A DNA stretch of 35,970 nt from an uncultured Robiginitomaculum sp. (GTDB taxonomy: Bacteria > Pseudomonadota > Alphaproteobacteria > Caulobacterales > Maricaulaceae): the NCBI GenBank assembly GCA_938001945.1, contig CALLBH010000051.1, positions 1 through 35,970 on the forward strand, in the 5' to 3' direction. This document shows, piece after piece, positions 8,372 through 31,095 of this stretch. The position numbers and the translations under genes were made by a program. The stretch's first letter is position 1, and every line of letters begins with the position of its first letter. A model generated the notes under the pieces. That model had not been told where the DNA came from, ran no database searches, and was given only the letters and a program-made list of their open reading frames with translations.

Positions 8372-8417
8372 GGTTCATCCGTAGCCGATTCCACCTGACC
8401 ACCGCATGAATGAGGCT

Positions 8418-10756: not shown

Positions 10757-10786
10757 GGCCGCAGCCCCTTTTCGTGAAATATGACA

Positions 10787-12711: not shown

Positions 12712-12720
12712 GATCAGATA

Positions 12721-13518: not shown

Positions 13519-15504
13519 TTAATTCCCTGCGCCCGAAAGACTCATTGGCATTTTGTCAAATGGCGTTGCGACAGGGGAGCCCACAGGCGCCTGCCCGGTT
13601 GGAGTGCCTGCGCTATACGACATGACCTGCGCATTTTTGCCGGCTTTGGTTTCGCGCATTGTTCCGTCTGCGCGTCCTGCGATGAAATTACCCTCCAGCG
13701 CGGTGCTTCCTGCTGCCGTATGGGTTATCATGTAGCCTGCACCTTGCGGTTGCCCGTTAACCGCATATCCGTAATATTCAATCGAGCGACCATCATCAGC
13801 CCGTAGCACGCCAACGCCTGCACCATTCGCTAAACCGTTTTCACATACGCCAAGCCATGTTCCTGACTTTACAGCGCCGTCATGGGTATAGCCGCAACGC
13901 GTCGCGACAGTATCCAGTGAGCGCTGTTTTTGGCTATATAGCGTTTGGAGTTTGCTACGAAGATCTTCAAAGCGGATGGCCGTAATCGTTTCATTTGAGT
14001 CGATTAGATTGACCTGAACTGTTTGCTGCTGCTCCAAAACAGGCGCAACGGAAGAGAGATAATTACTTCCCATCATTTTGGATTGTTTATTCAACGAATA
14101 TGCTTTTGATCCCGTATAGGCGATACCCGCGATGGCGACATCTGTAATGACCTTATTGGCCGCTTGATTACGGCGTTGGCACTCATAATATTCGCGCTGT
14201 GTGCGTGAGCGGCTGCAATCCTGACCAACACCACCATTGGCGATCATCGCGCCAGTCGCGAGCACACCTAAAACTGCCATCGTTGTATTTACATTTTGCT
14301 GACGGGCGAGCTCACGGCGCTCTTCGAGGTGATCATGTTCGGCCTTGAGCATATCGCGGGTCTGCACGCCGATTTCACCATTATAAACACCATCAAACAA
14401 ACGTAAGGATTGCACAGAGAGATATTTTTGCTCGGCTTCCAGCAAACGCTCAGCATAGCGATAGCGCGCGAGATAGTCTGCATCTTGTGATCCGACAATA
14501 GTTAAGGCGGCAAGGCTCGGATCATATTGAGCAATTGCAGCGGCGCGGCTAACCATGGTCGCCTTGTTCACATCCGTGCGGTTAATGATGCCGATGACTT
14601 GATTGGCGAAACCGGAGGAAAATGATGCTTTAAGCGGGTCTTGAACTGACGCGCCTTTAGAATTTATCTTTGCGAGCACTTTTTTATCGAGTTGAATTTT
14701 CTCCAGCGGATATGACGTCACAGTATTTGGCGACATTGAGCCGAATGACTGTGATGGAACGCGCGCAGCGCTATCAGCATTCAAATAAGAAATAAAATCA
14801 AGCGGGGGAACTGATGTTTCAAAGGTTCCATTTTGCAGCGCCGCAAGCGATTGACCAACGCCGCGCCTGCCACTTCCGGCTGAGGTGTTGAGAATCGGAG
14901 CACTCGCTAATTTTAGACCCTGAGTTGGAGCTGCTGCTCTGTGATCACTGTGCACTGTGACGAGCGGAGTCACTAAATCGCCAAATGTCAGGGGCGCTTT
15001 ACCCATCATCTTTTTGGCATCTGGGAAAGAGTAGCTGGTAAAATCGACGGTGACGACGCTGGGCAGGCTTTCTGCTTGTGTCATTGGCTCGGATGTAAGT
15101 TTGCCATTCGCACCAAGTTTAACCGTATGAGGGGAGAGCAAGACGCTGTGCTCTGGCATCTTCGCGGCCATTTCTTTGTAAACAGATAGTGCGTAGTAAT
15201 TAGACTTGATAATCATGCCATCGGCGAGCGCCTGGATCTCTGCGGCATCGCGTTTGTCTTTGGACCATTTGCCGCCAATTCCGCGCTTCGCATAGGCGTC
15301 ATAATAAGCCTGCTTGGCGTCATCTTCAACATGAGCCGGGTAACGCAATACAGCCATGACTGTGCCCGGCGGCGTTTCTTGGCGAAGCGGCTCGGCCATC
15401 GTCGATTTCATTACTGCGGAAGTGCTGATCCCTTTAGCGCTTGTCGCGCAGCCCGTAACCAACACTGCAGTGCTTATTAGAAATGCTGTTTTGACGCGTC
15501 CCAT
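13519..15504 (-). CDS. Large lipoprotein of unknown function, possible MORN-like C-terminal repeats
   Basis: Lipobox FLISTAVLVTGCATS; C-terminal GAGVGVLRADDGRSIEYYGYAVNGQPQGAGYMI...LEGNFIAGRADG. Confidence 0.65.
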   Translation of the reverse strand: MGRVKTAFLISTAVLVTGCATSAKGISTSAVMKSTMAEPLRQETPPGTVMAVLRYPAHVEDDAKQAYYDAYAKRGIGGKWSKDKRDAAEIQALADGMIIKSNYYALSVYKEMAAKMPEHSVLLSPHTVKLGANGKLTSEPMTQAESLPSVVTVDFTSYSFPDAKKMMGKAPLTFGDLVTPLVTVHSDHRAAAPTQGLKLASAPILNTSAGSGRRGVGQSLAALQNGTFETSVPPLDFISYLNADSAARVPSQSFGSMSPNTVTSYPLEKIQLDKKVLAKINSKGASVQDPLKASFSSGFANQVIGIINRTDVNKATMVSRAAAIAQYDPSLAALTIVGSQDADYLARYRYAERLLEAEQKYLSVQSLRLFDGVYNGEIGVQTRDMLKAEHDHLEERRELARQQNVNTTMAVLGVLATGAMIANGGVGQDCSRSRTQREYYECQRRNQAANKVITDVAIAGIAYTGSKAYSLNKQSKMMGSNYLSSVAPVLEQQQTVQVNLIDSNETITAIRFEDLRSKLQTLYSQKQRSLDTVATRCGYTHDGAVKSGTWLGVCENGLANGAGVGVLRADDGRSIEYYGYAVNGQPQGAGYMITHTAAGSTALEGNFIAGRADGTMRETKAGKNAQVMSYSAGTPTGQAPVGSPVATPFDKMPMSLSGAGN

Positions 15505-15664: not shown

Positions 15665-16906
15665 CTAAGCCATTTTGTTCATCAAAAGAACTGCCTTTTT
15701 ATCAGAGGCGCGCATTTTGAGGAACCGCCCTTGGCTAACGCGGCGCATTAGGCGTAATTGAGCCGCGGAGACGGTGTCCATTGTGACGCCTTTTGAGACA
15801 TCGAGATTGTTATCGGCCATGGATTGAGCCGTTTTCGCTTTGGACAGTCCTTGTTCGATTGATTGCTCAAGACTATCTTGATCCAGAGGGGTGTAGTGAA
15901 ATCCTGAGAGACCTTCGCGTTCGGTAACATCAATAAAATCGCCCATCATTGGATAAACAGGCGGCGTTCCATAGATTGCAGCTTGATGCAAAACACCAGA
16001 GCTCCCTGTTGTGCTGTCATAATCGAACACGGCAAGGCGGGCTTGTTTAAAGAAGCCTTCAACGTCCTCTTCGGCGACATAACCGTGGAATTTGATGGCG
16101 TCATCAGATTTGAACATTTTCGCCAAACCCTCCAAATAACCCGGTGTTGCAGGATGATCGCTTCCGCCAATAATGAGGGAAATTTTGTCTTCTTCTGAGC
16201 GGGTTTTATTGATGTTTTGAATGGCAAAAATGAGGCGTTCGAGTTTTTTGTAGGTTCCAAATTTTCCCATCGTCACGATCCTATTGCTGCGCTCAGACAG
16301 GCGATAAGTCTGTAAGGTTGATGCTATTGGAAATGAGCCATGTGGCACCATAAATGCATTTTTTGCGTTGTATTTTGATGTCAAAATTTCGTGGAAACTG
16401 TCCAAGGTCACACTCATATAGCCTGCTTTAAGCATAAGCTTCGTGATTAAGGTTCCAGCCAGTTCAACGATCTTTTGACGAAGCTTTTGGTTCGCTAAAT
16501 TTGTTTGAGCCAAATCGACGGCGTCGATCAGGTTATGCATCAAGACGCCGGTGCCATGGCCTTTAAGCTGGGTTAGCGCGGGGGCAAGAAGTCCAAGGGC
16601 TGCTGGGATTTCTTTGTCCCCAAAGCTAGCCGTTTGCAGGTTAAAGAGCACATTGTCCGGCTTGCATATATCAATCGCTTTGGTGATTTTGTGAACAGAC
16701 AACATGTCGTTAAATGTCCATACGCGGCGCACTTCAATTTTTGGATTAAGATCGAGCTCGGGTAGGGGCTCGTCCATTTTATCGGCAAGGATGATAATAC
16801 GGTCCAGATCAGATCTACGCGCGAATGCATTCGCAAGGTGAAGGGCATATTCATTCAAAGATCCACTACCGGGAGGGAACGCTGTGACGAGGGCTAAAGT
16901 TTTCAT
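15665..16906 (-). CDS. Glycosyltransferase, GT4-like
   Basis: ALVTAFPPGSGSLNEYALHLANAF; NRIVTMGKFGTYKKLERLIFAI; SGVLHQAAIYGTPPVYP. Confidence 0.78.
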   Translation of the reverse strand: MKTLALVTAFPPGSGSLNEYALHLANAFARRSDLDRIIILADKMDEPLPELDLNPKIEVRRVWTFNDMLSVHKITKAIDICKPDNVLFNLQTASFGDKEIPAALGLLAPALTQLKGHGTGVLMHNLIDAVDLAQTNLANQKLRQKIVELAGTLITKLMLKAGYMSVTLDSFHEILTSKYNAKNAFMVPHGSFPIASTLQTYRLSERSNRIVTMGKFGTYKKLERLIFAIQNINKTRSEEDKISLIIGGSDHPATPGYLEGLAKMFKSDDAIKFHGYVAEEDVEGFFKQARLAVFDYDSTTGSSGVLHQAAIYGTPPVYPMMGDFIDVTEREGLSGFHYTPLDQDSLEQSIEQGLSKAKTAQSMADNNLDVSKGVTMDTVSAAQLRLMRRVSQGRFLKMRASDKKAVLLMNKMA

Positions 16907-16946: not shown

Positions 16947-18443
16947 TTAAAGGTTCGAATTGTGGTTTTTGAAGATTTGAGCGGCTGGAAGAGGCGCGCC
17001 GTGGATATTATAAAGGCCGAAATGTTGTTGCTGTTTTCGCCGCCAAGGTCTGCGGCCAACTACGTCCGTGCTGACATGATCAAAGTCATTTAGCGTCCAG
17101 ACAAAAATACCATCAGCGCTGTCCAAACCGCTCAATTGCGTTTGCAGTCGCTGAGCTTGTTTTTTGGCGCTTTTGCCTTGGGTTGAAAATGGCGACCAGC
17201 GCGTCGTTCCAATTTCGGTAATCATCACGGGCTTTCCATTTGCTTTGGCTTTAACGTAGCTTAAGCGAGACGAAAGACCGTCAAGATCGCGGTAGTCGTG
17301 ATAACTGATGAAATCGATATTGGTCGTCATGGCGTCAACGGCGAGATAATCAGACCACCCTATAGTCAATTTGATATCCGGGTTTGCAGCGCGCGCGGAA
17401 TGGGCCATGACGCCAAGCCACGCCGTAACACTGTCCTGGCCCCAGTTCTCAAAATCTAAATCCGCTTGGTTCTTTAAATCAATTGCAAATAGAGCAGGGT
17501 GATCTCCAATTTGGCCGACGATGTCGTCAACATATTTTGCATCTTTGGCCCAATTGGACATCTGATATTGAGGACGTAAGTCAAACAACGTCACAACAAC
17601 CTTGATGTCATAATCTTCGCAGAAATTTAAAAATCTCATCAATCGTTCTTTAGATAAATCTTTGCTCTCTGCTGCTGTAAAGTCTGCATGATTGAGAAAT
17701 ATACGAACAGAATTTCCTCCAAGGTTCTTGATGAGAAGCAAATCTTTGAGAATTTCGTCCTCGGGGAATTCCGTCCAAAACTCATTCCACGGCGCGCTTG
17801 AGGGGTAGTAATTAATGCCGGATAATTTCCCGCTCAGTTCCAACGTCTCATCGTGATTTCGAATAGGAGTATTTGATGTTACTTCGGATGTTTTTTGCAC
17901 CCAGCCGCCCAGCGTAAACATAAAGCGGATGTTACGCGTTTGATGATCCGTGCTGAGTATGGAAATTGTTTCTGCGCTATTGTCGCGGCGTAACGTAATG
18001 CGCAGCGCCTCTTCGGTAAGGCTGATAATACGCATATCCCCATGCACAAAATTGGGAGTAACTTCCCGCGCAATTAGGATTGAATAATCGCAAAACTTGA
18101 ACTTTACAGTGCAAGATGATCCTGAAACGGCGTCGCCAGCTTGGTCAATATAAACAGGACGATCAAATGTAGTGTGCTGCTTTCTGTCGGAAGCTTCAAT
18201 GATGCGAATAAATGCAGCTTTGTCTTTGGCCGATAATTTTTTTTCATGAGCAATGTTGCCATCAATCCATGTTGTAATGTTGTCTTGTTTAGTTTTCGGA
18301 AGCGCATCAGTGAAATAGTCATAGGAAACCGCAGGGGTGCGAAGGTGTAGCGTAATGGCGGCTCCGCCAATCACTGCTACGCTAAGGATTCCTGCAAATA
18401 AGAGGCGCGGATCCACTAGGTTGGAATATCTTGATAGGTTCAT
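16947..18443 (-). CDS. Membrane-anchored TIM-barrel glycoside hydrolase-like protein (GH5-like)
   Basis: N-terminal TM; LLLIKNLGGNSVRIFL, DIKVVVTLFDLRPQY, HPALFAIDLKNQAD, DFISYHDYRDL, KPVMITEIGTTRWS. Confidence 0.75.
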   Translation of the reverse strand: MNLSRYSNLVDPRLLFAGILSVAVIGGAAITLHLRTPAVSYDYFTDALPKTKQDNITTWIDGNIAHEKKLSAKDKAAFIRIIEASDRKQHTTFDRPVYIDQAGDAVSGSSCTVKFKFCDYSILIAREVTPNFVHGDMRIISLTEEALRITLRRDNSAETISILSTDHQTRNIRFMFTLGGWVQKTSEVTSNTPIRNHDETLELSGKLSGINYYPSSAPWNEFWTEFPEDEILKDLLLIKNLGGNSVRIFLNHADFTAAESKDLSKERLMRFLNFCEDYDIKVVVTLFDLRPQYQMSNWAKDAKYVDDIVGQIGDHPALFAIDLKNQADLDFENWGQDSVTAWLGVMAHSARAANPDIKLTIGWSDYLAVDAMTTNIDFISYHDYRDLDGLSSRLSYVKAKANGKPVMITEIGTTRWSPFSTQGKSAKKQAQRLQTQLSGLDSADGIFVWTLNDFDHVSTDVVGRRPWRRKQQQHFGLYNIHGAPLPAAQIFKNHNSNL

Positions 18444-19138
18444 GACAAAAACCTTTTCGGACAGGTGCTGCTGTAGAGCGGTATTGATTGAGACTGCGTA
18501 GCTGCCGAAACGACGAGGCGAACATCATTAGGGCCAAGCTCTGCGCATTTTACATGCGTGAAAATTTGACCGGATACAATTTTCAGTTGGCGGCTCTTGC
18601 GAATGCCTTGATCTGTCTCGATAGTAAGTGTTGCGATATGCCCGCCCTCAATCAAATTTCCAAAACTATCTGTGAGCTCATTTGTCCGCAGCGTCATGCC
18701 ATCACCGGTCATGCGTCTGCGAAGTGTAAAGGGGGTAAGGTCCCCGCTTCCGATCAAAATTTCAACGGGCGCGGAGGCGATGTCGCCAAGATAAGCCGTA
18801 TAGGTCATGCGCCCGCGCCGCACAGGAGCCGAAAGGTCCATAACGGCTAGTCCATGAATTACGTCGAGTGTATATTGCTCTCCGTTTTGCTCGTTTTTGA
18901 CAGTTACAAATTTTGCATTTGAACTTGCGCCGTTTGCCGTCAATGTTTCAACGGCAATATATAGTGGCTTGCCGGGAAGAACCGATTGAGGGCCAATATA
19001 GAGATCGACGTTAGATGTCGCGCATTCCATTTTCAAAGCATCAGTATCATTTAAACAGGCACTACTTAATGTCTCCCCCAAGGCCGGGGCGGATAGGGTG
19101 AGGCATGTAAGGCCCGTAAATATGTATGTCTTTACCAC
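18440..19138 (-). CDS. Secreted protein, possible Ig-like fold; ATGA-coupled to the GH5-like gene
   Basis: Track start 19174 is a TTG inside a sigma54 -12 element; GTG at 19138 gives a signal peptide VVKTYIFTGLTCLTLSAPALG with GGAG upstream. Confidence 0.6.
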   Translation of the reverse strand: MVKTYIFTGLTCLTLSAPALGETLSSACLNDTDALKMECATSNVDLYIGPQSVLPGKPLYIAVETLTANGASSNAKFVTVKNEQNGEQYTLDVIHGLAVMDLSAPVRRGRMTYTAYLGDIASAPVEILIGSGDLTPFTLRRRMTGDGMTLRTNELTDSFGNLIEGGHIATLTIETDQGIRKSRQLKIVSGQIFTHVKCAELGPNDVRLVVSAATQSQSIPLYSSTCPKRFLS

Positions 19139-19170
19139 CGTGGCGTTCTCCAATTGCTGCTCAATAGGTT

Positions 19171-19185
19171 GCAATGGATGTGCCT
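19171..19185 (-). promoter_or_regulatory. Candidate sigma54 -24/-12 promoter for the 19138→15665 operon
   Basis: Minus strand AGGCACATCCATTGC(A): GGCAC / TTGCA with canonical GG-to-GC spacing; deviates only at the first base of TGGCAC. Confidence 0.72.
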
Positions 19186-19236: not shown

Positions 19237-19269
19237 TTGCAAATCGCAAATCAGTTTCGCGCTTTGCGA
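19237..19269. promoter_or_regulatory. Paired inverted repeats (candidate activator-binding sites) between the divergent sigma54 promoters
   Basis: TTGC-aaatc-GCAA (19237-19249) and TCGC-gcttt-GCGA (19257-19269), centres 20 bp apart. Confidence 0.62.
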
Positions 19270-19299
19270 CGAAAAACGGTAAAAATGATGCCAATTCAC

Positions 19300-19314
19300 T
19301 GGCCTATATTTTGC
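19300..19314 (+). promoter_or_regulatory. Candidate sigma54 -24/-12 promoter for the GT2-STAS/flippase/GT-C operon
   Basis: TGGCCTATATTTTGC, canonical spacing; predicted TSS about 19326, 15 nt before ATG 19341. Confidence 0.68.
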
Positions 19315-19340
19315 GAGGTATGAGCAAAATGGAGGACCAC

Positions 19341-20489
19341 ATGTTGGCACAACAAAACGAAATTAATACAGCCCTCAAATCTTGGGAGCTCGAAAAAACA
19401 GCAATCGTAATTCCGTGTTATAACGAAGCCAGACGGTTGCCGTTAGACGCATTTCTAAATCTAACCCGAGAGCGAGATGATATACGCCTCGTTTTTGTTG
19501 ATGACGGGTCTAAGGACGAAACCATCAGTTTATTGTGCGGCGCCATGGCCGCTTTGCCTGATAAAGTTGACGTCCTGCTCATGAAACAAAATGGTGGAAA
19601 AGCGGAAGCTGTACGCCAAGGCCTTAAATACGCTTCTGGACGCGGGCATAAATATGTCGCCTTTTTAGATGCTGATTTAGCAACCCCAATGGATGCCGTT
19701 CTGGACTTTGCCTCAGTGGCGGATCGCATGGATGAAATTGATGTTGTTTTTGGCTCTCGCAAGGGTGGTTTGGGGCATAAGGTTCACCGAGACTTTAGCC
19801 GCAAAATCATTTCTCTTGTTTGTGCGACGATGGGACGTTTGGCGACGGGTTTGCCAATCCAAGATACGCAATGCGGTGCTAAATTATTCAGAAACACGCC
19901 GCAATTTCGGCGAAGCCTGACACGTGCCTTTTCTGCGGGTTGGCTCTTTGATGTAGAGCTATTCTTACGTGTTTCTCATCCTGACCGTAAAAGGCGCGAT
20001 AATTTCTTTGAGTTTCCAGTAATTGAATGGACAGAAATTCCAGGTTCAAAAATAAAATCTTCTGATGTTCTTAAAAGCGGCTTTAAAATGCTTGCCCTGA
20101 TTTTCAATCAATGGCGAATTCGCGATCGATATTTCAAGAAATCCAGTCAAGACGAAATCGAGGGCTTTCAAACGCTGCGTTGTGGTGAAAACTTAACCAA
20201 GCAAATCTTAGATGAACTTTCAGATCATATTGATCACCAAGTAGATGGGCTAATTTTGGACCTTTCAAAGGTAAAAGTCCTTGCGCCTTCAATATTTACC
20301 ACATTAATCAAAACATGCGATGATATTGAACGCAGCGGTTTGAAGCTCAAAGTATGGCTGCCCCACGATGATCATATTGCGCAAACAGCGCTTCAGACAG
20401 GATTTGCGTCGTTATTTGAGTGCGTTAGAGTATCTGCGCGCCCCGAAATAATGCCAAATCACGACCGCTTTGATATGGTCGAGGTATAA
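19341..20489 (+). CDS. Family 2 glycosyltransferase (dolichyl-phosphate glucosyltransferase-like) fused to C-terminal STAS-like domain
   Basis: TAIVIPCYNEARRLP, LVFVDDGSKDET, VAFLDADLATP, QDTQCGAKLF; C-terminus VDGLILDLSKVKVLAPSIFTTLIKTCDDIERSGLKLKVWLP; start revised to ATG 19341 with GGAGG at 19331-19335. Confidence 0.83.
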   Translation: MLAQQNEINTALKSWELEKTAIVIPCYNEARRLPLDAFLNLTRERDDIRLVFVDDGSKDETISLLCGAMAALPDKVDVLLMKQNGGKAEAVRQGLKYASGRGHKYVAFLDADLATPMDAVLDFASVADRMDEIDVVFGSRKGGLGHKVHRDFSRKIISLVCATMGRLATGLPIQDTQCGAKLFRNTPQFRRSLTRAFSAGWLFDVELFLRVSHPDRKRRDNFFEFPVIEWTEIPGSKIKSSDVLKSGFKMLALIFNQWRIRDRYFKKSSQDEIEGFQTLRCGENLTKQILDELSDHIDHQVDGLILDLSKVKVLAPSIFTTLIKTCDDIERSGLKLKVWLPHDDHIAQTALQTGFASLFECVRVSARPEIMPNHDRFDMVEV

Positions 20490-20492
20490 GTC

Positions 20493-21773
20493 ATGATTGC
20501 TTCAACCCTCAAATCCAAATGGGCAAGTTTTGATTTTTTAGGCCCTGCGGCAATACTGTTCCTCTCGGTCAATATTGCCAATGTTGCAAATCTATTATTC
20601 AATATGTTGTTTGCGCGGCTTATGACGCCAGCCCAATTTGCCGATTTAACGCTATTGTTGACGATTAAACTCGGTATTCTGTCACTCTTTACAGCAATTC
20701 AATTTGCCGTTTCGGAAATTGCCGCGTCGCAACCTAATGAAACGGCGGCAAAGACATTTGCAGCGCGTCTATCTCGCGCAAGTTTTAAATATTCTCTGCC
20801 ACTCTGTTTTCTAATGCTGGTCTGCGTCGAAAGTCTCTGCCAGACCTTTAATCTTGCAGACTGGAAAGCCGTTGCAATTTTATGCGCGGCGATCCCTTTA
20901 TTTCTTCCTATGGTAATTTATCGGGGTCTTGCGCAAGGCCGCATTGATGTAAAGAAAATGGTCGGCTCTGTTCAGAGTGAGTGGATTATTCGTCTTGCAG
21001 GCTGCTGGATTCTTTACCAAGCGGGTTTTGGACTGCTGGGTATCGCAGTCGCTTTGGTTTTATCCATCATCGCTGCATTTGTGTTTGCATTAGACAAAGA
21101 TGATATGGCCTGCCTTGTAGCCTCAAAGCCAGTAATGGGTGCTAAGCATCGTTCGTTATTGCTTACGAGCCTTCCTTATGGCGTTCTGTGTTTCGCCCAA
21201 ATTATCGCGTTGGACAGCGATATCCTCATTGCAAAAGCGATGTTTGATAACGATTCAGCGGGCATTGCCGCGGGTATTATGTTGATCCAGCGTATCTTCT
21301 TTTTCGCATTTTTATCATTTGCGATGATTTTACAACCGATTGTTAGCGCAAAAACGGATGCGGCCCATCAATTTAAGAGTCTTTGGGTTCTTCTCAGTTG
21401 CGTCGCATTTATATCTGTCTGCGGTATCGGCGTTATGGCCCTCATGCCGGATTTGTTTGTCATGATCTTTTTGGGCGAACAATATGCAGCGGCGGGGACA
21501 TATGTCGTTTTAGCCGGATGTATCGGCGCAAGCTTTACGATCGCGCATTTATGTACGGTGTTTTTGATCGCAAAAGGCCGGTCCTACGCTCCTCTTTTAC
21601 TGCTGATCTTTGTAACCCTACATATTTGCTCAAATTTAACCGCGTTTAATACAATGTTGGATTATAATCTGGGCGAGTACCTGTCCATAAAGGCTGTAAT
21701 TGTCGGTTTTGGGGCGCTGAGTGTTGCGTCCTACACATTTTGGGATGCGCTAAGGATGAAACGGACTGCATGA
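20493..21773 (+). CDS. Polysaccharide biosynthesis/flippase-like membrane protein
   Basis: Multi-TM; NIANVANLLFNMLFARLMTPAQFADLTLLLTIKLGILSL typical of Wzx/PST-type N-terminus. Confidence 0.75.
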   Translation: MIASTLKSKWASFDFLGPAAILFLSVNIANVANLLFNMLFARLMTPAQFADLTLLLTIKLGILSLFTAIQFAVSEIAASQPNETAAKTFAARLSRASFKYSLPLCFLMLVCVESLCQTFNLADWKAVAILCAAIPLFLPMVIYRGLAQGRIDVKKMVGSVQSEWIIRLAGCWILYQAGFGLLGIAVALVLSIIAAFVFALDKDDMACLVASKPVMGAKHRSLLLTSLPYGVLCFAQIIALDSDILIAKAMFDNDSAGIAAGIMLIQRIFFFAFLSFAMILQPIVSAKTDAAHQFKSLWVLLSCVAFISVCGIGVMALMPDLFVMIFLGEQYAAAGTYVVLAGCIGASFTIAHLCTVFLIAKGRSYAPLLLLIFVTLHICSNLTAFNTMLDYNLGEYLSIKAVIVGFGALSVASYTFWDALRMKRTA

Positions 21774-24700
21774 TCGTTAAGCCTAAAAATTGGGTGTATC
21801 TCTCAATCCTCCTTGCAATTGTTTTGCACGGAGCTTTGCTGCCGTTCACTTATGGGCAAACTTATGACGCTTATATCCACATGTTCTTTGGCAACCACTA
21901 TTTTGAAAGTTGGTTCGACCCATGGGAAACAAAATGGTATACGGGATTTACTGTCACGGCATACCCGCCCGGCAGTCATCAACTCATCGGGCTTCTTCTA
22001 AATTTCGTAGATATGCAGACGGCTTTCATACTTGTGATGGTCTTGGCCGTGACGTTGTTGGTGATTGGCGTTTACAGATTTAGTCGGATTTGGGTGAGCG
22101 ACAAAGCGGCGGCTTTTGCGACAATCTTAGCGGCTTTTGCATCGGGTATATCTGAAACAATACATGTGTTCGGGCAATTGCCGACGATTTTATCAATCGG
22201 TCTGTTTTTAAATGCCTTACCGCATATGGCCGGGTGGATAGAGCGTGGTAAGAAAACCGATCTGGCTCTTGCTCTGATTTTTACAGCCGGAGCGACGTCG
22301 GTTCACCATGTCACGCCATTATTTGGCACTGTGTTCTTTGTTGCGCCCATTGGAGTTGCTGCATGGGTATCGAATTTAAAACGTAACCCACTCCAAACGG
22401 ATGTCCATACGACGCTTCTAAAAAAGGGCCTGCGCCTCAGCATCGCGCCGGCGAGAGGCGTTGTGCTTGGCCTGATGATGCTTGGTTTACTCGTATCGAT
22501 TGTTTTTCCTTATTGGCACTGGTCAATCACAGATCCGATCACACAGGTAAATATCGGTCATGGTAGCCGCGAGAGCTTTATTGAAAAACCTAATCTTGGG
22601 CTGATGTTTTTTGTTATTCCCTGGGGCTTACTCATTGGAGTTTTGCCTTATGTTATTTTGAAATTGAAAAGTCCGTTATGGCCCCTATGTGTGTCCGTCA
22701 TTGTCGCATTTATTTTAGGAACTGGCGGCACAACGCCCATACCCAAAATGGTTCTCGGGCCTGCCTTTGGAATTTTGACGCTCGACCGTTTCACATTTTG
22801 GGGAACCTTGCTAATCCTTCCATTCGCTGGACTGCTTATACACAGTATGGTCTCGGGCCGGTTCCGAATTTATATTGATGCCGCCTTTGGGAAGGTCATT
22901 GGCCGAGTTGGGCTTGTATCACTGATGGTCTGCTATGGCGTTCTGCCTTTGCTGATTGCGGCAATGCCAACAGTAAGGCCAATGCAACCGGACTTCGTTG
23001 AACCCGCACCAATGGTCAAATTTATGGAGGAGGATAACCATTCCAGATGGCGTTATCTTACATTAGGGTTTGGGGATCAATTCGCCTATCACAGCGCCCT
23101 AATCAATGCGGAGTCCGTAGACGGAAATTATCATTCTGCCCGTCGTCTTCCAGCCCTAACAAATTATAATGTAGAGCGGCTTGAGAATTCAAAATTTGCT
23201 GGCGTGCCGGGTTTGGCTTCACTCAATCAATTTTTGACTAACGCTGATAAGTTCCATCTGAAATTCATCTTCTCCAATGATGAATATTATGATCCGCTTT
23301 TGCATTATACAGGATGGAATAAAGTGACCCGTCTTGGAAATGGTATCATGGTGTGGGAGAAGCAAAATATCTCGCCTCTGCCGGATATCCGTGCGCGCAG
23401 AACCATGCCGCGTTATCAGGTATTAATGTGGGGCATAATTCCAATTAGCGCGCTTGCTCTGGTCGGAATCACACTCATTATTCTAACGACCACAGGCCAG
23501 CTCATTTCGGCTAAACGACAGGGCTTTGTGAGCGACGCGATAAAGTCACCAGATGTACCCCTAAAAAGTCTCGCTCTTTTGTGGGTAAGAATCGTTCCGC
23601 TTATTTTAGGCAGCTTAATTCTATTTTTTAGCAGTCGGGCCTTGGTTAGTCACGCTGCGCCTGAGCCACCGGAGCAGGTAATACGAGATTACTATTTACA
23701 TCTTTCATTTCGTGAAATGAGCGCAGCGTATGACTTACTAATTCCCAAAGAGAATTTCACCTATGATAATTTCCTTCGCGAGCAGCGCCTAACGGGTGGT
23801 TTAGTGCCGTCCTATGGCAGCCTAAAATCTGCTGAGACGGTTACTTCAAAATTGGATGAGAACACGTTGTCTACGCAAACGGCTTTGACCTATTTGACAT
23901 CTATCGGTTTGAAACAGGTTGATGTTGAGCATCGACTTGTTAGAGACGCTTCCGGTCAATGGAAGATGAACCATATCCCCAAAGTCAGCCAGTTTTCCAA
24001 AGACATGGTTATGCGAGTGACGAATGTTCAAACCAGCGACCTTACCGGACGGAACATCATTGAGCCGAATAGGGAGGCTGCGGCGATGCTTCAAAGGCCT
24101 GACGTGAATGTGTCGGAAAGCTACCTCATTCAAAAGAATGGACGTCTCTATGTGACGGGCCGCTTACTGAACAGGTCGAATTTTCCTGCTTGTGTTAAAG
24201 TTAGTGCCGATGCGATTGGAGAAGACGGAGATGTTTTAATGACGCAAAGCTCTGGCGTGTTAGGGGCGCATAGACTTCTTCCCGGCGAAAGCTCTCCATT
24301 TGTTATTCGGTTTGAAGGTTTTATGAAAATCGGAGATGCGTCATTTGATACCGCGCATGATCCGACATTATTCAGTTTGCCTGAATTTACCGAGAAGCCT
24401 AAGCGTGCTAATCTCAACGTAGAAACGACGGTATGTTCAGCGGATATATATAAGAACATTGAGGTGTCTGATCCGAGCGTTACGGATGGCATTATAAGTC
24501 TAACAGTGACGAATAACGGGCACCTTCCTGTCAGCACATTGCAGCTAAAACTATCTATGCGCCAAGTCGAAAAGGCGGGTTTGTGGATTGAGCCCTCATA
24601 TTTGCAATTCAATCTTAGGCCGGGTGAAACGCGTAAGGTCAACTTTGCAGCGCCCGTCTCTGATTTTGATATTCACGGCACAATTACTGAAGCACGGATC

Positions 24701-24814
24701 AATGGCCAAATGCGTGGCGTCTCTGGTATTCAGAGCCAGGGCTTACCGGTGATAGGGCCTGATTACGTTGTGAATGTCGACTATGATGCTATGGTTTATC
24801 AACAAAAAGAATAA
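21770..24814 (+). CDS. Large membrane protein, GT-C / PTPS-related-like N-terminal region with long periplasmic C-terminus
   Basis: TYDAYIHMFFGNHYFESWFDPWETKWYTGFTVTAYPPGSHQLIGLL followed by many TM segments; ATG at 21770 overlaps flippase stop (ATGA). Confidence 0.65.
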   Translation: MIVKPKNWVYLSILLAIVLHGALLPFTYGQTYDAYIHMFFGNHYFESWFDPWETKWYTGFTVTAYPPGSHQLIGLLLNFVDMQTAFILVMVLAVTLLVIGVYRFSRIWVSDKAAAFATILAAFASGISETIHVFGQLPTILSIGLFLNALPHMAGWIERGKKTDLALALIFTAGATSVHHVTPLFGTVFFVAPIGVAAWVSNLKRNPLQTDVHTTLLKKGLRLSIAPARGVVLGLMMLGLLVSIVFPYWHWSITDPITQVNIGHGSRESFIEKPNLGLMFFVIPWGLLIGVLPYVILKLKSPLWPLCVSVIVAFILGTGGTTPIPKMVLGPAFGILTLDRFTFWGTLLILPFAGLLIHSMVSGRFRIYIDAAFGKVIGRVGLVSLMVCYGVLPLLIAAMPTVRPMQPDFVEPAPMVKFMEEDNHSRWRYLTLGFGDQFAYHSALINAESVDGNYHSARRLPALTNYNVERLENSKFAGVPGLASLNQFLTNADKFHLKFIFSNDEYYDPLLHYTGWNKVTRLGNGIMVWEKQNISPLPDIRARRTMPRYQVLMWGIIPISALALVGITLIILTTTGQLISAKRQGFVSDAIKSPDVPLKSLALLWVRIVPLILGSLILFFSSRALVSHAAPEPPEQVIRDYYLHLSFREMSAAYDLLIPKENFTYDNFLREQRLTGGLVPSYGSLKSAETVTSKLDENTLSTQTALTYLTSIGLKQVDVEHRLVRDASGQWKMNHIPKVSQFSKDMVMRVTNVQTSDLTGRNIIEPNREAAAMLQRPDVNVSESYLIQKNGRLYVTGRLLNRSNFPACVKVSADAIGEDGDVLMTQSSGVLGAHRLLPGESSPFVIRFEGFMKIGDASFDTAHDPTLFSLPEFTEKPKRANLNVETTVCSADIYKNIEVSDPSVTDGIISLTVTNNGHLPVSTLQLKLSMRQVEKAGLWIEPSYLQFNLRPGETRKVNFAAPVSDFDIHGTITEARINGQMRGVSGIQSQGLPVIGPDYVVNVDYDAMVYQQKE

Positions 24815-24815
24815 A

Positions 24816-24853
24816 CGAATTGCGTTATGCAATTCGACATTCGCATTTTGCAA
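24816..24853. promoter_or_regulatory. Paired inverted repeats (candidate activator-binding sites) upstream of TolC-like gene
   Basis: CGAATTGC-gttat-GCAATTCG (24816-24836) and TCGC-atttt-GCAA (24841-24853), centres 21 bp apart. Confidence 0.62.
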
Positions 24854-24915
24854 ATATTAGTCTGAATTAGTGATCAATTAACCATCTAAGCCATTGTTTT
24901 TATTGAAGGGCTGAC

Positions 24916-24930
24916 TGGTCTTTACCTTGC
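24916..24930 (+). promoter_or_regulatory. Candidate sigma54 -24/-12 promoter for the TolC-like gene
   Basis: TGGTCTTTACCTTGC(A), canonical spacing; predicted TSS about 24942, upstream of ATG 24960. Confidence 0.68.
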
Positions 24931-24959
24931 ATTGTTTAAGGCAAATGAAAGGTGACATT

Positions 24960-26402
24960 ATGCACACAACACAAAATTATGGTCGGAAATCCCTGAAGGT
25001 TTTATTGCTCGGAAGCATCTTCTTTTTGGGAGCCTGCGCCACTACAACTACGCAGTATAATAGCGACAACATCGAATTGCGTATGTCGGAGCTTCCTCAA
25101 ACGCCGCCACTACCAGCGGGCTTTGAAGAAGCGCCTTTATCACTTGAGGACGTTAGAGCTATGGCGGTTAGCCGTAATGCAGAGTACCGTCAGAAATCGG
25201 CCCGCATTCTGCAAAGCGTAAGTCAAAGAGGCGGAAACAAAGATCTTATGCCGCGCCTTTACGCGCAATCATTTGGTCGGTGGCGGAGCAATACGGATGC
25301 GTCTGTTGGCGTTAGAGTCGATGACCCTAATAGCAATATGCCTGTTGATTTTTTCACGGCGCAAGACCGGACATTTGCCAATTCAAATATCTCTCTCAAT
25401 TGGAATCTGCTTGATTTAGGTCTGACCGGTTACATGAAAGGCGTCTCGAATATCGAAGATTATGACGCGCAAGAACAGATGCGTCTTGGATGTCATCAAA
25501 TGACGGTTGATGTTGAACGCGCATATTGGCGCTATGTTGCTTACAAGCGAGCTGTAGATAAATCTGCGTGGCTAAATGATCGCATTGAATATGGCATGCA
25601 ATTGTCAGAAACGCATATGGAAGAAAACCCTGAGAGTCGTCTTGAAGAGCTTATGTATCAACGTGAACTCATTGATATTAAGCGCTGGTACGAGTCCTTG
25701 TTTCGCGGATTAGTCTCCGCAGAGGCAGATATGGCAAAATTGTTGAATGTTCCTGTGGGTACTAAGATTTCTCTCGACCCTGATCCAAATTACAATGAGA
25801 CCCTAGGGCAAGTTGAAGAGTTTGATATTAGTTCACTCGCAATGGAAGCCTATCAGAACAGACCTGAAATTCGGAGGGCCCTATATAATGTCGATAAGAA
25901 AGAGCTAAATAACAAACAAGAAATTCTGCGTCACTTACCGGGGATTAATATGTTTGTTTCTGGCAATAATGACACGAATAGTTTCAAGCTTAATCAGGAT
26001 TTCTTTTCGGCCGGCGTTGACTTGTCCTGGAATGTTTTAGGTCTCTTAGACCTCGATCGGAAAAACAAACTCGGTAAGTCTGAGCTCGCATTGATGGAGC
26101 AAGATGTGCAGGTCGTCGCCACAGCAATTTTTGCGCAAATCGTACTGGCTTATCAGGACGTGAAAAATATGGAGCATGAGGTTGATTTAGCCTGGAGAGC
26201 GAAAAGCATTCAAGGTGAGATCACACAGCGTCTCTCCAGCGATTTTGAAAAAGGTGACGCCCGAGAGATATATGTTGTTAAAGAGGAGCTTCTAAGAGAG
26301 ATGAGCGTGATCAGAGAAGATCTATCGCGCGCCGATCTCTTTGCTGCACGTGCGCGCTACGATCTAAGCCTTGGCGTCGTTAAAGCCTGCGAAGCCGGAT
26401 AA
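24960..26402 (+). CDS. TolC-like outer-membrane factor lipoprotein
   Basis: Signal/lipobox LLLGSIFFLGACATT; paired helical OMF-type regions (NISLNWNLLDLGL, VDLSWNVLGL); start revised to ATG 24960 with AAAGGTGA upstream. Confidence 0.75.
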   Translation: MHTTQNYGRKSLKVLLLGSIFFLGACATTTTQYNSDNIELRMSELPQTPPLPAGFEEAPLSLEDVRAMAVSRNAEYRQKSARILQSVSQRGGNKDLMPRLYAQSFGRWRSNTDASVGVRVDDPNSNMPVDFFTAQDRTFANSNISLNWNLLDLGLTGYMKGVSNIEDYDAQEQMRLGCHQMTVDVERAYWRYVAYKRAVDKSAWLNDRIEYGMQLSETHMEENPESRLEELMYQRELIDIKRWYESLFRGLVSAEADMAKLLNVPVGTKISLDPDPNYNETLGQVEEFDISSLAMEAYQNRPEIRRALYNVDKKELNNKQEILRHLPGINMFVSGNNDTNSFKLNQDFFSAGVDLSWNVLGLLDLDRKNKLGKSELALMEQDVQVVATAIFAQIVLAYQDVKNMEHEVDLAWRAKSIQGEITQRLSSDFEKGDAREIYVVKEELLREMSVIREDLSRADLFAARARYDLSLGVVKACEAG

Positions 26403-26435: not shown

Positions 26436-27872
26436 TTAACCGGTCAGTTCAATTTTTTCTGAAGGCTGGGCAATGTCCCAGCCTTCTTTTTTACGGTAAA
26501 CGGTTGAAGGACTGATGCTTAGCATATCAGAGGCCTTTGGAATGCTTCCGCCGCGCAGCTCAATTGCCGCTTCAATAATAATCCGCTCAATATCTGCTAG
26601 GGGTTGATCCAGATTTATTGTCAATTCATTGGGGTCCTTCGGCGCAAGGGTAACTTCTTCGATGAGACTATATGCGTCCGAGGATACCGCTTTTTGAGGG
26701 GATGTTAGTGACAACATATCCGGCTCTAGAGTGTCCGCATTAAACATCACAACAGCTTTGCGTATGGTGTTTTGCAGCTCCCGGATGTTGCCAGGCCAAC
26801 GATGAGCGAGGACTAGAGACTTGGTCTCTTCGGAGAGGCCTCTAAATGACTTACCCTCTTCCTCGGAAAAGCTTTTTAGAAAGCTGCGTGCAAGTTCGAG
26901 AACATCTTGATCGCGATCGCGCAGGGGAGGCAGGTCAACGGTTAGAACATTTAGACGGTAATAAAGGTCTTCGCGAAATCGCTTTTCTGTGACTTCCTCA
27001 AATGGATTTCTATTTGTCGCACAGACAATGCGCACATCAACTTCTTCGGTCCAATCACTGCCCACGCGTTTGATCTGACTGGTCTGAAGGAATCGCAAAA
27101 GCTTAGCTTGCAAGCCAATATCCATTTCGCAAATTTCATCTAAAAATAATGTTCCGCCATTCGCCTGACTTGCAGCGCCTTTTCGCGCGGCGTCTGCGCC
27201 AGTGAAAGCTCCTTTGACGTGACCGAAAATTTCAGACTCCATCAGGTTTTCTGGTATTGCCGCGCAGTTGATTGCAACGAAAGGTTTCTTCTTGCGATCA
27301 CTGACATCGTGAATGGCACGCGCCGTGACTTCCTTACCGGTCCCAGATTCTCCGGTTACAAAGACCGGCGCTTTTGAGTTGGCGATACTTTCGATTGTTT
27401 TGTAAACAGCGAGCATAGATGAGGAGCTGCCAATGAATCCTGGCAATGTCATTGTGCCTACAGCCTTAGATAGACTACTGACTTTAGTTTTAAGCGAAGC
27501 GCGTTCAATCGCATTTTTGATGGATGTAACAAGACGCTCTTCCGGGAACGGCTTTATCAGAAAGTCATAAGCGCCCAGACGCATGGCATCCACAGCGGAG
27601 TTCACCGACCCATTGGCCGTAATGACGATAAATGTCGTTTCGCTCTGCGCCGCGTCAATGTCAGCCAGAATTTCCAGTCCGCTTACTTCAGGTAATTGCA
27701 AATCAAGGACGACTGTCTTGTACGCGCCTGTCTTTAAAATATTTAAAGCGGTCGCGCCATTTTGGCAAATCTCCGACGAAATGCCCGCATTTTTCAAAAG
27801 CTTCTCATACATGAGCGCCATGGATAAAGTGTCTTCAATAATTAGTACATCAGCTGTGTTTTGGGGGCTCAT
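26436..27872 (-). CDS. NtrC-family sigma54-dependent response regulator
   Basis: REC TVVLDLQLPEVSG; AAA+ TGESGTGKEVTARAIH; GAFTGA loop (VKGAFTGADAA); Fis-type HTH AAIELRGGSIPKASDMLSISPSTVYRK. Confidence 0.95.
   Translation of the reverse strand: MSPQNTADVLIIEDTLSMALMYEKLLKNAGISSEICQNGATALNILKTGAYKTVVLDLQLPEVSGLEILADIDAAQSETTFIVITANGSVNSAVDAMRLGAYDFLIKPFPEERLVTSIKNAIERASLKTKVSSLSKAVGTMTLPGFIGSSSSMLAVYKTIESIANSKAPVFVTGESGTGKEVTARAIHDVSDRKKKPFVAINCAAIPENLMESEIFGHVKGAFTGADAARKGAASQANGGTLFLDEICEMDIGLQAKLLRFLQTSQIKRVGSDWTEEVDVRIVCATNRNPFEEVTEKRFREDLYYRLNVLTVDLPPLRDRDQDVLELARSFLKSFSEEEGKSFRGLSEETKSLVLAHRWPGNIRELQNTIRKAVVMFNADTLEPDMLSLTSPQKAVSSDAYSLIEEVTLAPKDPNELTINLDQPLADIERIIIEAAIELRGGSIPKASDMLSISPSTVYRKKEGWDIAQPSEKIELTG
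26461..26492 (+). terminator. Intrinsic terminator for TolC-like gene, inside the 3' coding end of the convergent response regulator
   Basis: GAAGGCTGGG-CAATGT-CCCAGCCTTC then TTTTTT. Confidence 0.85.
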
Positions 27873-27881
27873 TGTAATCTC

Positions 27882-29909
27882 CTAGGCTGCGTGTTTTGCA
27901 GTCCCAAATAACGTGTCCAAATTTGATAAAGTTTCACGGGCAGCCATGATCGTCTTTTTCGTGGCTCTATGGCATTGTGCGGTCTCGCCAGCTTCGGCCA
28001 GTACATTAGCATTGTCGGCAAGCGAGCTTAGATCGGATAGACCATATGTCCCGGCGAGCCCTTTTAGCGTGTGACTAGGGTGAATGATTTTGCTGATGTC
28101 TTTAGCGATAAGAGCTTTATCCATGGCATCTGCGGCGGCCCTTAAATCAAGCTCAAATTGCGTTTGGAACGCACAGAGCTCATCGGGCGTCAATTCACCT
28201 AGTAATTCAATTAGCGCTAATTTGACGCCCTGCGATGCGTTGTCCATATTATATTCCCTGTCGAATAAATTCGAGGCAATGGCGGCGATCAAATCCGTGC
28301 GTTTAAACGGTTTTGTCACAACGTCATTCATTCCAATCGTCTTCAAGTTTTGAATTTCGTGGAAATTTCCCATGGCTGTGAGCGCAATAATTGGAATGTT
28401 CCGATAAGACTTTTGAGACTCCCGAATATGGCGGCATGCTTCTTTGCCGCTCATTTCCGGCATGAAAATATCCATCAAAATGATGTCAAATTGGGCGTTT
28501 TCTAAGGCCTTTAAGGCCTCACGGCCATTGTCCACAATAGTGATGCTTTTGCAGTGGTTTGATAAAATTCGTGAGACGACCATTTGGTTTGTTTTGTTGT
28601 CTTCTGCAATCAAGACGCGGCATTCAGAAATGTCTTCATTTGTGCTCGGATATCGGGGTTGGACTTCCTCAGTCTTCGCGCTGGGTATGGGAAGCGTAAC
28701 CCAAAATTCTGACCCTTTGCCAAGCTCACTATCCACGCCAATGCGCCCGCCCATCATTTCCGCAATGATTTTTGAAATCGTTAGTCCGAGGCCTGTTCCG
28801 TCATGGTTTCTCGAATCCGAGTCATCCACCATAAAAAATTCGTCAAATAATCTTGCGGCAGCGTCTTCTGAAATGCCAATACCCGAATCTTTGACACTAC
28901 ATTTTAAACTCCACATTTCATCGGATGTTTGATGGGTCATAATCTTGAGAGAAATGCTTCCGGACTTGGTGAACTTCAGAGCGTTGCTGACATAGTTCAT
29001 TAAAATCTGCCTGATACGGCCTAAGTCGCCCTTCAAGAACACATTGTCGGCTTGTGATGCATCGATTGTAAAATCGACGCCGATATCTTTGGCTTTGACT
29101 TTGAAGAGTTGGAATACATCGTCAAAAACGTCTCGCGCCGAAAAAATCTCATCTATATAGGTTATATTTCCTGAAGAAATTCGCGCGTAATCAAGAACAT
29201 CATTGATGACTCTTAGAAGCGCGAGTGAGGATTTTTCCGCCGTTTTAACGAGGTCTCTCTGATCTTTGTTAAGCGGCGTTTCACCTAAAATGTCTAAAAT
29301 TCCTAAAACTGCATTGAAGGGTGTGCGAATTTCATGGCTCATCGCAGCCAAGAACTTTGATTTTACTTTACTGGCTTTCTCTGCGGCATCTTTGGCTTCG
29401 ATAAGGGCGGTTTGTGCGGCTTTAGCTTCTGAGATGTCCCGGATGTAAGCGATGAAAATATCGCCGCTCTCGCGCTGACTTCTGGAAATTGCGAGCTCGG
29501 ACATGAACTCAGTTCCGTCGGCGCGCAGGGCCTCGATTTCAATTCTTTGACCCAATATTTTTTCTTGCCCGGTATTTTTCATTCGAGCCATGCCGGCATT
29601 ATGAGCATCTCTGTAACGCTGAGGAACAATTAGTTCTGCCATGCTTTGGCCGATGACTTCATCGCGCTTATAATCGAATATTTTCTCGGCAGACGCGCTA
29701 AACTCAATAATGTTTCCGTCCAAATCAATTACAATTATTCCATCTAGTGATGCCGCTACAGTTGCTTGGAGTTGATCGGCGTTTATCTCAGCCTTTCGTT
29801 CAGCGACTCTGGCTTGATCCTGCCATTTCAGGTTCGTTCGCCGAAAGCCATAGCCAAGACAAAACGAAACCGCTGCCGCTCCAATTGTAATGTACAACGC
29901 GTCCACCAT
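27882..29909 (-). CDS. PAS hybrid sensor histidine kinase with REC and C-terminal HPt-like domain
   Basis: MSHEIRTPFNAVLGILD, GTGLGLTISK, REC IILMDIFMPEMSG, HPt-like HPSHTLKGLAGTYGL; start revised to ATG 29909 (AGGAG-TATT-ATG). Confidence 0.92.
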   Translation of the reverse strand: MVDALYITIGAAAVSFCLGYGFRRTNLKWQDQARVAERKAEINADQLQATVAASLDGIIVIDLDGNIIEFSASAEKIFDYKRDEVIGQSMAELIVPQRYRDAHNAGMARMKNTGQEKILGQRIEIEALRADGTEFMSELAISRSQRESGDIFIAYIRDISEAKAAQTALIEAKDAAEKASKVKSKFLAAMSHEIRTPFNAVLGILDILGETPLNKDQRDLVKTAEKSSLALLRVINDVLDYARISSGNITYIDEIFSARDVFDDVFQLFKVKAKDIGVDFTIDASQADNVFLKGDLGRIRQILMNYVSNALKFTKSGSISLKIMTHQTSDEMWSLKCSVKDSGIGISEDAAARLFDEFFMVDDSDSRNHDGTGLGLTISKIIAEMMGGRIGVDSELGKGSEFWVTLPIPSAKTEEVQPRYPSTNEDISECRVLIAEDNKTNQMVVSRILSNHCKSITIVDNGREALKALENAQFDIILMDIFMPEMSGKEACRHIRESQKSYRNIPIIALTAMGNFHEIQNLKTIGMNDVVTKPFKRTDLIAAIASNLFDREYNMDNASQGVKLALIELLGELTPDELCAFQTQFELDLRAAADAMDKALIAKDISKIIHPSHTLKGLAGTYGLSDLSSLADNANVLAEAGETAQCHRATKKTIMAARETLSNLDTLFGTAKHAA

Positions 29910-30110
29910 AATACTCCTATGGGTGGCATTATGAATCAAAGCGCTTAACAAACGTTCAGGTTGTGTGGTTAGGAAGGCCTTAACATTTGCGGCGTGAGTT
30001 AAGCGGATGCCAACAATTATTATAGAACAAAGAGACGTATAATTTTACGTCTTTATTCTTTGGAGGAGGCAAGTTTATAATTGATACTCATGTATCAGCA
30101 GCTCAAAAAA

Positions 30111-30185
30111 TGGTGCCGCGAGGGAGAATTGAACTCCCGACCTCATCATTACCAATGATGCGCTCTACCCCTGAGCTACCGCGGC
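30111..30185 (-). tRNA. tRNA-Thr (anticodon GGT), encoded CCA
   Basis: Minus strand GCCGCGGTAGCTCAGGGGTAGAGCGCATCATTGGTAATGATGAGGTCGGGAGTTCAATTCTCCCTCGCGGCACCA folds to a cloverleaf; anticodon loop TTGGTAA. Confidence 0.96.
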
Positions 30186-30380
30186 GAATTTGGACTGTTA
30201 GGTCAAATTTCCTACGCCCATATATGAGATTTTGAAACTATGCAAAGTCACAAACATCATTATTCAGGCCGCTCCCTACAAGTATTTGACATGGGGGTGC
30301 AAGTCAAAACTAGGTTCCCGTGCTGCTCGGGTAACGCCTCGCTATTGACGACTATACCTGCTGGCCGCTAGGCAATGCTC

Positions 30381-30494
30381 ATGTCTAAAAGCGAAACGCA
30401 GAAAACAGAAAAGCAACGCGCGCAAGAACGCAAAGCTAAAGCCTTGCGTGATAATCTTCGCCGCCGAAAACAGGCTGGCCGAAAGGCGGATTAA
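30381..30494 (+). CDS. Small basic protein, 37 aa (MSKSETQKTEKQRAQERKAKALRDNLRRRKQAGRKAD)
   Basis: Below track length cutoff; followed by a terminator hairpin; resembles short basic RRRK proteins I recall near murA in alphaproteobacteria (recollection, unverified). Confidence 0.65.
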   Translation: MSKSETQKTEKQRAQERKAKALRDNLRRRKQAGRKAD

Positions 30495-30502
30495 ATACTG
30501 TT

Positions 30503-30530
30503 ATGAGGCCCAAAATAGGGCCTCATTATT
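30503..30530 (+). terminator. Hairpin terminator after the 37-aa ORF
   Basis: ATGAGGCCC-AAAATA-GGGCCTCAT then TATT; perfect 9-bp stem, modest T-tract. Confidence 0.65.
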
Positions 30531-30548
30531 GTTGGGGAAAGGCGCGTC

Positions 30549-31084
30549 TTAATTTCCTGTCCCTGATGAACTTTCAGGGTCAAAGAAATAGAGCTGCGGG
30601 AAGCTCTTCCCGTCGGCGGTCGTCAAAACAATTGATAAATATCCTGAGACTTTCCATTGCCCTTCTTTTGAGACAACGTTGAGTGTCTTTTTAGACTCGC
30701 ATTGCAGATATTTCGTATCTTTGGCCGGAGGCGTTGGAGGGGCAATCTCATGAGAGTCGGACCATTTCGCTAGATAAGACGTTGAGTCTTCAGGATCAAA
30801 CAATGAAAGTGGCTCACGCATATTGGCGGGAATTGAAATGAGCGTGCAATCCGTAACGCTCATACTTTCTAAAATCATGTCACTTTGCGCGTCACAATTT
30901 TCATTTGGAGATGCGCCGATGACTTCTATTGCAAGCTCATCGCCGGCTTGGAAATTAAATGTTCCGGCAAGCGGCCCTGTATCAAGTTTTTCGCATTTTT
31001 GATCATTTGGCCCAAGGATTTAATAGTTCAAAGCCTCGTAACTTGCCGAATGTCAAAGTTGAGTTGTAAAGTGTATGTTGTCAT
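30549..31084 (-). pseudogene. Possible disrupted small protein gene; open 3' part is 30549..30878
   Basis: ATG 31084 with GGAAAG SD stops after 18 codons; protein-like reading resumes in another frame (ILGPNDQKCEKLDTGPLAGTFNFQAGDELAIEVIGASPNENCDAQSDMILES...) with no ATG/GTG/TTG before 30878. Confidence 0.4.
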
Positions 31085-31095
31085 AGTTTCTTTCC

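Follow-up and report, generated by a model that had tools for sequence, protein, structure and literature searches.

Gene content of the locus

The window analysed here is a single contig of 35,970 nucleotides (CALLBH010000051.1) from the incomplete draft genome (2.13 Mb, 77% complete) of an uncultured Robiginitomaculum sp. It carries putative polysaccharide genes preceded by three −24/−12 sigma-54 promoters and by two pairs of short inverted repeats, hereafter boxes, which are very probably upstream activating sequences (UASs) through which an adjacent regulator of the LuxO/SypG type would turn on the making and export of a polysaccharide. The rightward operon is led by a GT2 glycosyltransferase gene (19341–20489, plus strand; Pfam Glycos_transf_2), followed on the same strand by a membrane protein that is flippase-like by position and size alone (20493–21773; no family match, kept at orthologous loci) and a large PTPS_related membrane protein (21770–24814; PF10131). 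Past its glycosyltransferase domain, the GT2 protein has a C-terminal portion without a Pfam match that looks STAS-like by eye. Further downstream, an OEP/TolC-like outer-membrane protein (24960–26402, plus strand; Pfam OEP) has its own promoter. The leftward operon, on the minus strand, begins with a predicted secreted protein with a GTG start (18440–19138), whose orthologs are weakly conserved, and continues with a glycoside-hydrolase-like protein (16947–18443; Pfam Glyco_hydro_cc/Cellulase) and a GT1 glycosyltransferase (15665–16906; Pfam Glycos_transf_1), the latter 60–63% identical at orthologous loci. Convergent to the OEP/TolC-like gene, according to domain and family scans, lie the genes of a sigma-54 response regulator of the LuxO superfamily (26436–27872, minus strand) and of a hybrid sensor kinase with the architecture PAS-HisKA-HATPase-REC-Hpt (27882–29951, minus strand; Pfam), which adjoins the regulator at orthologous loci and is its proposed partner.

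The three −24/−12 elements are located exactly as an earlier note on this DNA had placed them: TGGCCTATATTTTGCG for the GT2 operon (19300–19315, plus strand; column-conserved GGcC...TTTGCG), AGGCACATCCATTGCA for the leftward operon (19170–19185, minus strand; column-conserved in the ortholog alignment) and TGGTCTTTACCTTGCA for the OEP/TolC-like gene (24916–24931, plus strand; conserved in the alignment). They combine GG at −24 and GC at −12 with proper spacing and conservation, and sigma-54 is encoded in the same genome.

Paired boxes upstream of the sigma-54 promoters

Two boxes, TTGCAAATCGCAA (19237–19249) and TCGCGCTTTGCGA (19257–19269), lie in the divergent control region with their centres 20 bp apart, and two more, TTGCGTTATGCAA (24820–24832) and TCGCATTTTGCAA (24841–24853), lie upstream of the OEP/TolC-like gene with centres 21 bp apart, all at the positions first reported for them; none has an assigned strand. 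The larger inverted repeat CGAATTGC-N5-GCAATTCG is likewise present upstream of the TolC-like gene. All three promoters thus have a box pair upstream, as the earlier note had claimed, but there are only two pairs, the divergent one serving two promoters. Counted from the −12 element, box centres are at about −83/−63 for the GT2 operon, −84/−104 for the leftward operon and −116/−95 for the OEP gene. The distance of 50–100 bp given previously is right from box to promoter element and slightly low when measured from the predicted start site.

Short GC-containing inverted repeats could arise by chance in AT-rich intergenic DNA and have no function, and the single motif TYGC-N5-GCRA is indeed no commoner in the window than in shuffles: there are nine matches against 6.5 ± 2.2, and nine or more were reached in 19 of 100 shuffled windows. 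Since this count is not significant, we did not take it as evidence, and the five matches outside the two control regions look like chance. The pairs behave differently. The exact pair with a 7-bp gap and the exact pair with an 8-bp gap each occur once in the 2.13-Mb draft assembly, both in the window, so that the genome-wide pair search proposed in the earlier note confines the 20/21-bp pairs to these two places; none occurred in 300 Markov-simulated windows totalling 10.8 Mb. Across ten genomes, pairs with gaps of 0–30 bp were found at 22 places, 12 of them with the 20/21-bp spacing, compared with 6 places for a reversed control.

Conservation across related genomes

To this evidence the related genomes, Hellea and other metagenome-assembled genomes of Caulobacterales, add conservation (in what follows, G and L numbers are our labels for genomes and loci). 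Among 136 genomes sampled, 15 others of the family have an ortholog of the GT2 protein (54–74% identity) and 15 an ortholog of the regulator (at least 55% identity); 14 genomes belong to both sets. We compared 17 divergent regions, the window included, from 16 genomes of the family, and 15 OEP regions. Box 1 of the divergent region is retained in each of the 17 loci, always 50 bp away from the promoter on the GT2 side. From the leftward promoter it is separated by 51 bp in every locus covered by the promoter-distance scan, and by 51–52 bp according to locus coordinates. A second box follows at 20 bp (19 bp in L084); it is intact in six loci, namely the window, L070–L073 and L084, and has one degenerate half-site in the remaining ones. 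Upstream of the OEP gene, the distance to the promoter is 83 bp for box 1 (82 bp at L073) and 62 bp for a second box or near-box, both values holding for 14 of the 15 loci. The exception is L086, in which both boxes are displaced by 10–11 bp, or one helical turn. The OEP gene of G001 lies on a contig other than that of the GT2 locus and retains a box, the −24/−12 promoter and the conserved block described below. With all loci combined, 45 motif matches fall within the two control regions, whereas about 1.2 would be expected. G039 has two copies of the whole locus (L071 and L072) on different contigs.

Thus, absence upstream of orthologous operons, which the earlier note had named as grounds for dropping its proposal, is not what is seen: the boxes are kept at base-precise distances. 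Another such ground, that the motif might be equally common in random sequence, holds for single motifs, which are at chance level, but not for the pairs, which are absent from the simulations and whose placement and conservation exceed chance. The boxes are real by pairing, placement and conservation, not by single counts. Given that about 16 genomes keep the base distances fixed despite GT2 proteins that are only 53–75% identical, the alignments effectively refute chance palindromes as an explanation, to which we give next to no probability.

The alignment of the 15 loci revealed a further block in the stretch that separates the OEP promoter from its boxes, TTAACCATCTAAGCCATTGTTTTTA (24878–24902, plus strand), aligned as TTAACyAtCTAAgycatTGttTTTa. 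Its core, TAAGCCATTGTTT (24887–24899), resembles YAANNNNTTGATW, the consensus of integration host factor (IHF), and each of the 15 loci has YAANNNNYTGW at the equivalent position.

The boxes correspond to the LuxO operator

The five spacer positions were left free by the search, yet they converge: a purine in 46 of 47 boxes, W in 43, 40 and 40 of 47, and a pyrimidine in 47 of 47. With purine-WWW-pyrimidine in the spacer, the box consensus becomes TYGCRWWWYGCRA. The published LuxO operator is TTGCAWWWTGCAA (PMC10162802), and V. cholerae LuxO sites mapped by chromatin immunoprecipitation sequencing include ttgcaaatcgcga (PMC10328515), from which the box at 19237 differs by one base. Judged by sequence, the box consensus is the LuxO operator. 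As a positive control, we considered loci in a sample of 398 genomes whose protein passes the curated LuxO cut-off; in 8 of 8 a box is present about 50 bp upstream of luxO.

The adjacent regulator is a LuxO-superfamily protein. It has the domains Response_reg, Sigma54_activat, AAA_lid_14 and HTH_8 (Pfam), corresponding to REC, AAA+ and Fis-type helix-turn-helix (HTH) modules, and the GAFTGA motif is present. The LuxO family of NCBIfam (NF041946) is the best of its 111 family matches, and LuxO (5ep0) is its best sequence match in the PDB. The earlier note labelled the protein simply NtrC-type and overlooked its LuxO identity, as well as the IHF-like block at the OEP promoter and the chance-level count of single motifs. 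In its HTH, GSIPKASDMLSISPSTVYRKKEGW, the LuxO recognition helix SPSTxYRK is intact (LuxO-type pattern SPST[IV]YRK). Alanine scanning of V. cholerae LuxO has defined the HTH residues and eleven that are essential for DNA binding (PMC11407668); in our own comparison the regulator is identical to LuxO at 12 of the 22 HTH residues and at 7 of the 11 essential ones. In a quick tree the regulators of this family form their own clade of 13 rows with support of 99, outside the set of Vibrio LuxO and SypG-like proteins. Several branches are long; therefore, we rely only on the separateness of the clade and not on its exact position. In this tree the SypG-like rows are presumed to represent SypG, and both the HTH comparison and the tree include rows from plasmid loci of Azospirillum and others. 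The regulator is most likely LuxO/SypG-like in its working, yet not a LuxO member by score or tree. G057 has two adjacent regulator copies (L076, 15178–18410), 63% and 59% identical to that of the window.

Since other NtrC-type activators are encoded in the genome, of which the assembly covers 77%, the boxes might be genuine enhancer sites bound by one of these instead. However, the other full-length NtrC-type matches of the genome score far lower on the LuxO model (at most 369 bits), the box is the LuxO operator while the adjacent protein bears the LuxO recognition helix, and orthologs of the regulator accompany the GT2 locus in 14 of the 15 other genomes that have it. We consider binding by one of these other activators improbable. 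By contrast, the assignment of the boxes to the protein encoded at 26436–27872, put forward in the earlier note, is strongly suggested by the recognition helix and by co-occurrence of regulator, operons and boxes.

Proposed mechanism of activation

Starting from what is established by computation, namely the boxes, the promoters, their geometry and conservation, co-occurrence with the regulator and its protein family, we infer a mechanism that involves binding, a phosphorelay, a role of IHF, activation and a polysaccharide product. Phosphate from the hybrid kinase, relayed through the kinase's REC and Hpt domains, would activate the regulator. Adjacent dimers of the regulator would then occupy the two 13-bp boxes of a pair (TYGCRWWWYGCRA), whose centres are two helical turns apart, and would assemble into an AAA+ ring and remodel the sigma-54 RNA polymerase held at the −24/−12 elements. 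The divergent pair, its first box lying midway, would fire the GT2 operon to its right and the hydrolase/GT1 operon to its left, while the second pair would fire the OEP/TolC-like exporter gene, perhaps via IHF-assisted looping. In this way, synthesis and export of one surface polysaccharide would be turned on together. Consistent with this view, and with the candidate UASs of the earlier note, the boxes match the LuxO operator and keep a base-precise geometry, which makes UASs the strongly favoured interpretation.

Besides the unremarkable number of single motifs, several points count against this interpretation. The regulator is under the curated LuxO cut-off, with 543 bits versus the required 800 (true LuxO controls reach 848–867 bits on NF041946), and in the quick tree its clade appears to be sister neither to LuxO nor to the SypG-like proteins. 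Another activator of the same specificity could also explain the conservation of the boxes. Finally, the IHF identity of the block upstream of the OEP promoter is putative, suggested by the general consensus, and the polysaccharide product is predicted from gene content.

The sign of regulation is not given by sequence alone, and the boxes could in principle be operators at which the regulator or some repressor blocks transcription. Yet they lie well upstream of the −24/−12 elements, 30–83 bp from edge to edge and without overlap, and sigma-54 promoters require an AAA+ activator with the GAFTGA motif, a domain that the adjacent regulator has. Repression is thus very unlikely.

As for autoregulation, no box is present upstream of the kinase gene of the window (29951–31096 inspected), whereas the relatives L072, L075, L087 and L098 do carry boxes there.

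Comparison with known systems

The closest parallel is LuxO/qrr of Vibrionaceae, with which the locus shares a LuxO-superfamily regulator, the recognition helix SPSTxYRK, the 13-bp operator TTGCAWWWTGCAA and paired boxes upstream of sigma-54 promoters (PMC10162802, PMC10328515, PMC11407668). It differs in that the regulator scores below the LuxO cut-off and falls into a separate clade, in that the kinase has its own Hpt domain and adjoins the regulator, and in that boxes of this family tolerate C in position 2 and G in position 12. Moreover, the boxes of the window precede protein-coding polysaccharide genes and not Qrr RNAs. In V. cholerae, LuxO works mainly through Qrr RNAs (PMC10328515), and the boxes of the window might likewise chiefly drive a Qrr-like small RNA. 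However, the predicted transcription starts are about 15–21 bases from the start codons, and because the leaders are this short and contain Shine-Dalgarno-like sequences, no room is left for a small-RNA gene before the open reading frame. In addition, an Rfam search within the window returned one tRNA gene (30114–30185, minus strand) and no other RNA family. For the boxes of the window, Qrr-like targets were rejected on both grounds, and we regard them as extremely unlikely.

SypG/syp of Vibrio fischeri provides a second parallel, since SypG, a LuxO paralog, activates a polysaccharide locus from several sigma-54 promoters. It too uses LuxO-type boxes at qrr1 (PMC10162802), and it is controlled by the kinase SypF (PMC12369376). 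The site reported for syp promoters is TTCTCANNNTGMDWN, whereas the conserved sites here are LuxO-type boxes, the two patterns having been compared by eye only. The polysaccharide gene set is also a different one, and in the tree the regulator does not come out as a sister of the SypG-like proteins from Vibrio. PrsK/PrsR of PEP-CTERM/exosortase loci resembles the present system as a two-component pair that places genes associated with exopolysaccharide under sigma-54 control (PMC1569441, PMC9850573). PrsR (PEP_resp_reg, TIGR02915) is the second-best NCBIfam match of the regulator, but it was rejected at 406.7 bits against a cut-off of 502.6, below the LuxO score, and no exosortase family match was found among the proteins scanned.

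Further candidate targets and possible origin of the box code

To collect candidate targets in relatives, we scanned for a box plus promoter and inspected the open reading frames behind the matches. There were 64 matches in 17 genomes with the locus or the regulator, compared with 20 in 16 genomes without the regulator; because scattered matches occur in the latter as well, isolated ones were not counted as targets. The box-linked genes in relatives are accordingly presented as target candidates. They include the OEP gene of G001 described above and an OEP promoter in G101, of the same genus. In G036 and G040 a box and a −24/−12 promoter stand before an H-NOX (HNOB) gene, which is followed by two kinase-type genes in G036 (L188, 4723–7729) and by similar reading frames in G040 (L189, from about 4040). 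In V. fischeri, SypG is likewise reached by an HnoX-controlled kinase (PMC12369376). A small protein and an N-acetylglucosamine (GlcNAc) 2-epimerase, identified by family match, lie behind a candidate box in G016, with a similar pair in G017. In G033, where no GT2 ortholog was found, the regulator adjoins a box and promoter before porin, HlyD-like and GT2 synthase genes (L088, 2400–6442), a candidate target that may be another polysaccharide-type operon. A protein of 118–119 residues stands behind boxes and a −24/−12 promoter, apart from the polysaccharide locus, in G018, G045 and G057 (L184, 6547–6903; L185, 4711–5064; L187, 3612–3968; no Pfam match for the two scanned). It is present in six genomes, five of which have the regulator. 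In a more distant regulator clade, with 45–49% identity, boxes are near the kinase genes too.

The LuxO box, studied in Vibrionaceae, is hereby extended to Alphaproteobacteria; we found no report of such boxes in this class in the literature searched, which covers subscription papers poorly. We tentatively suggest that the LuxO operator code predates Vibrio quorum sensing and that an alphaproteobacterial clade of the LuxO superfamily uses it directly on polysaccharide operons. As part of this ancestral code, the same DNA word might conceivably also serve the H-NOX and kinase operon, the GlcNAc-epimerase operon and the small protein in relatives. If so, the LuxO/Qrr circuit of Vibrio would have been derived from an ancestral switch for a surface lifestyle, which bears on the question of whether LuxO-type control of polysaccharides, as by SypG, is earlier than its use in quorum sensing. 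For Hellea-type bacteria, an uncharacterised regulator–kinase pair gains a testable DNA code and a target set. Since box and promoter stay with their gene even when it is found on a separate contig, the code can be used for regulon prediction in draft genomes.

Elsewhere in the window there are two further hybrid sensor kinases (1560–3623 and 5029–7065), flanking a thymidine kinase/phosphoribosyltransferase gene pair, and a leftward gene run (7226–15504) encoding FGE-sulfatase-type, MotA/ExbB-type and VWA-domain proteins together with several proteins without a family match.

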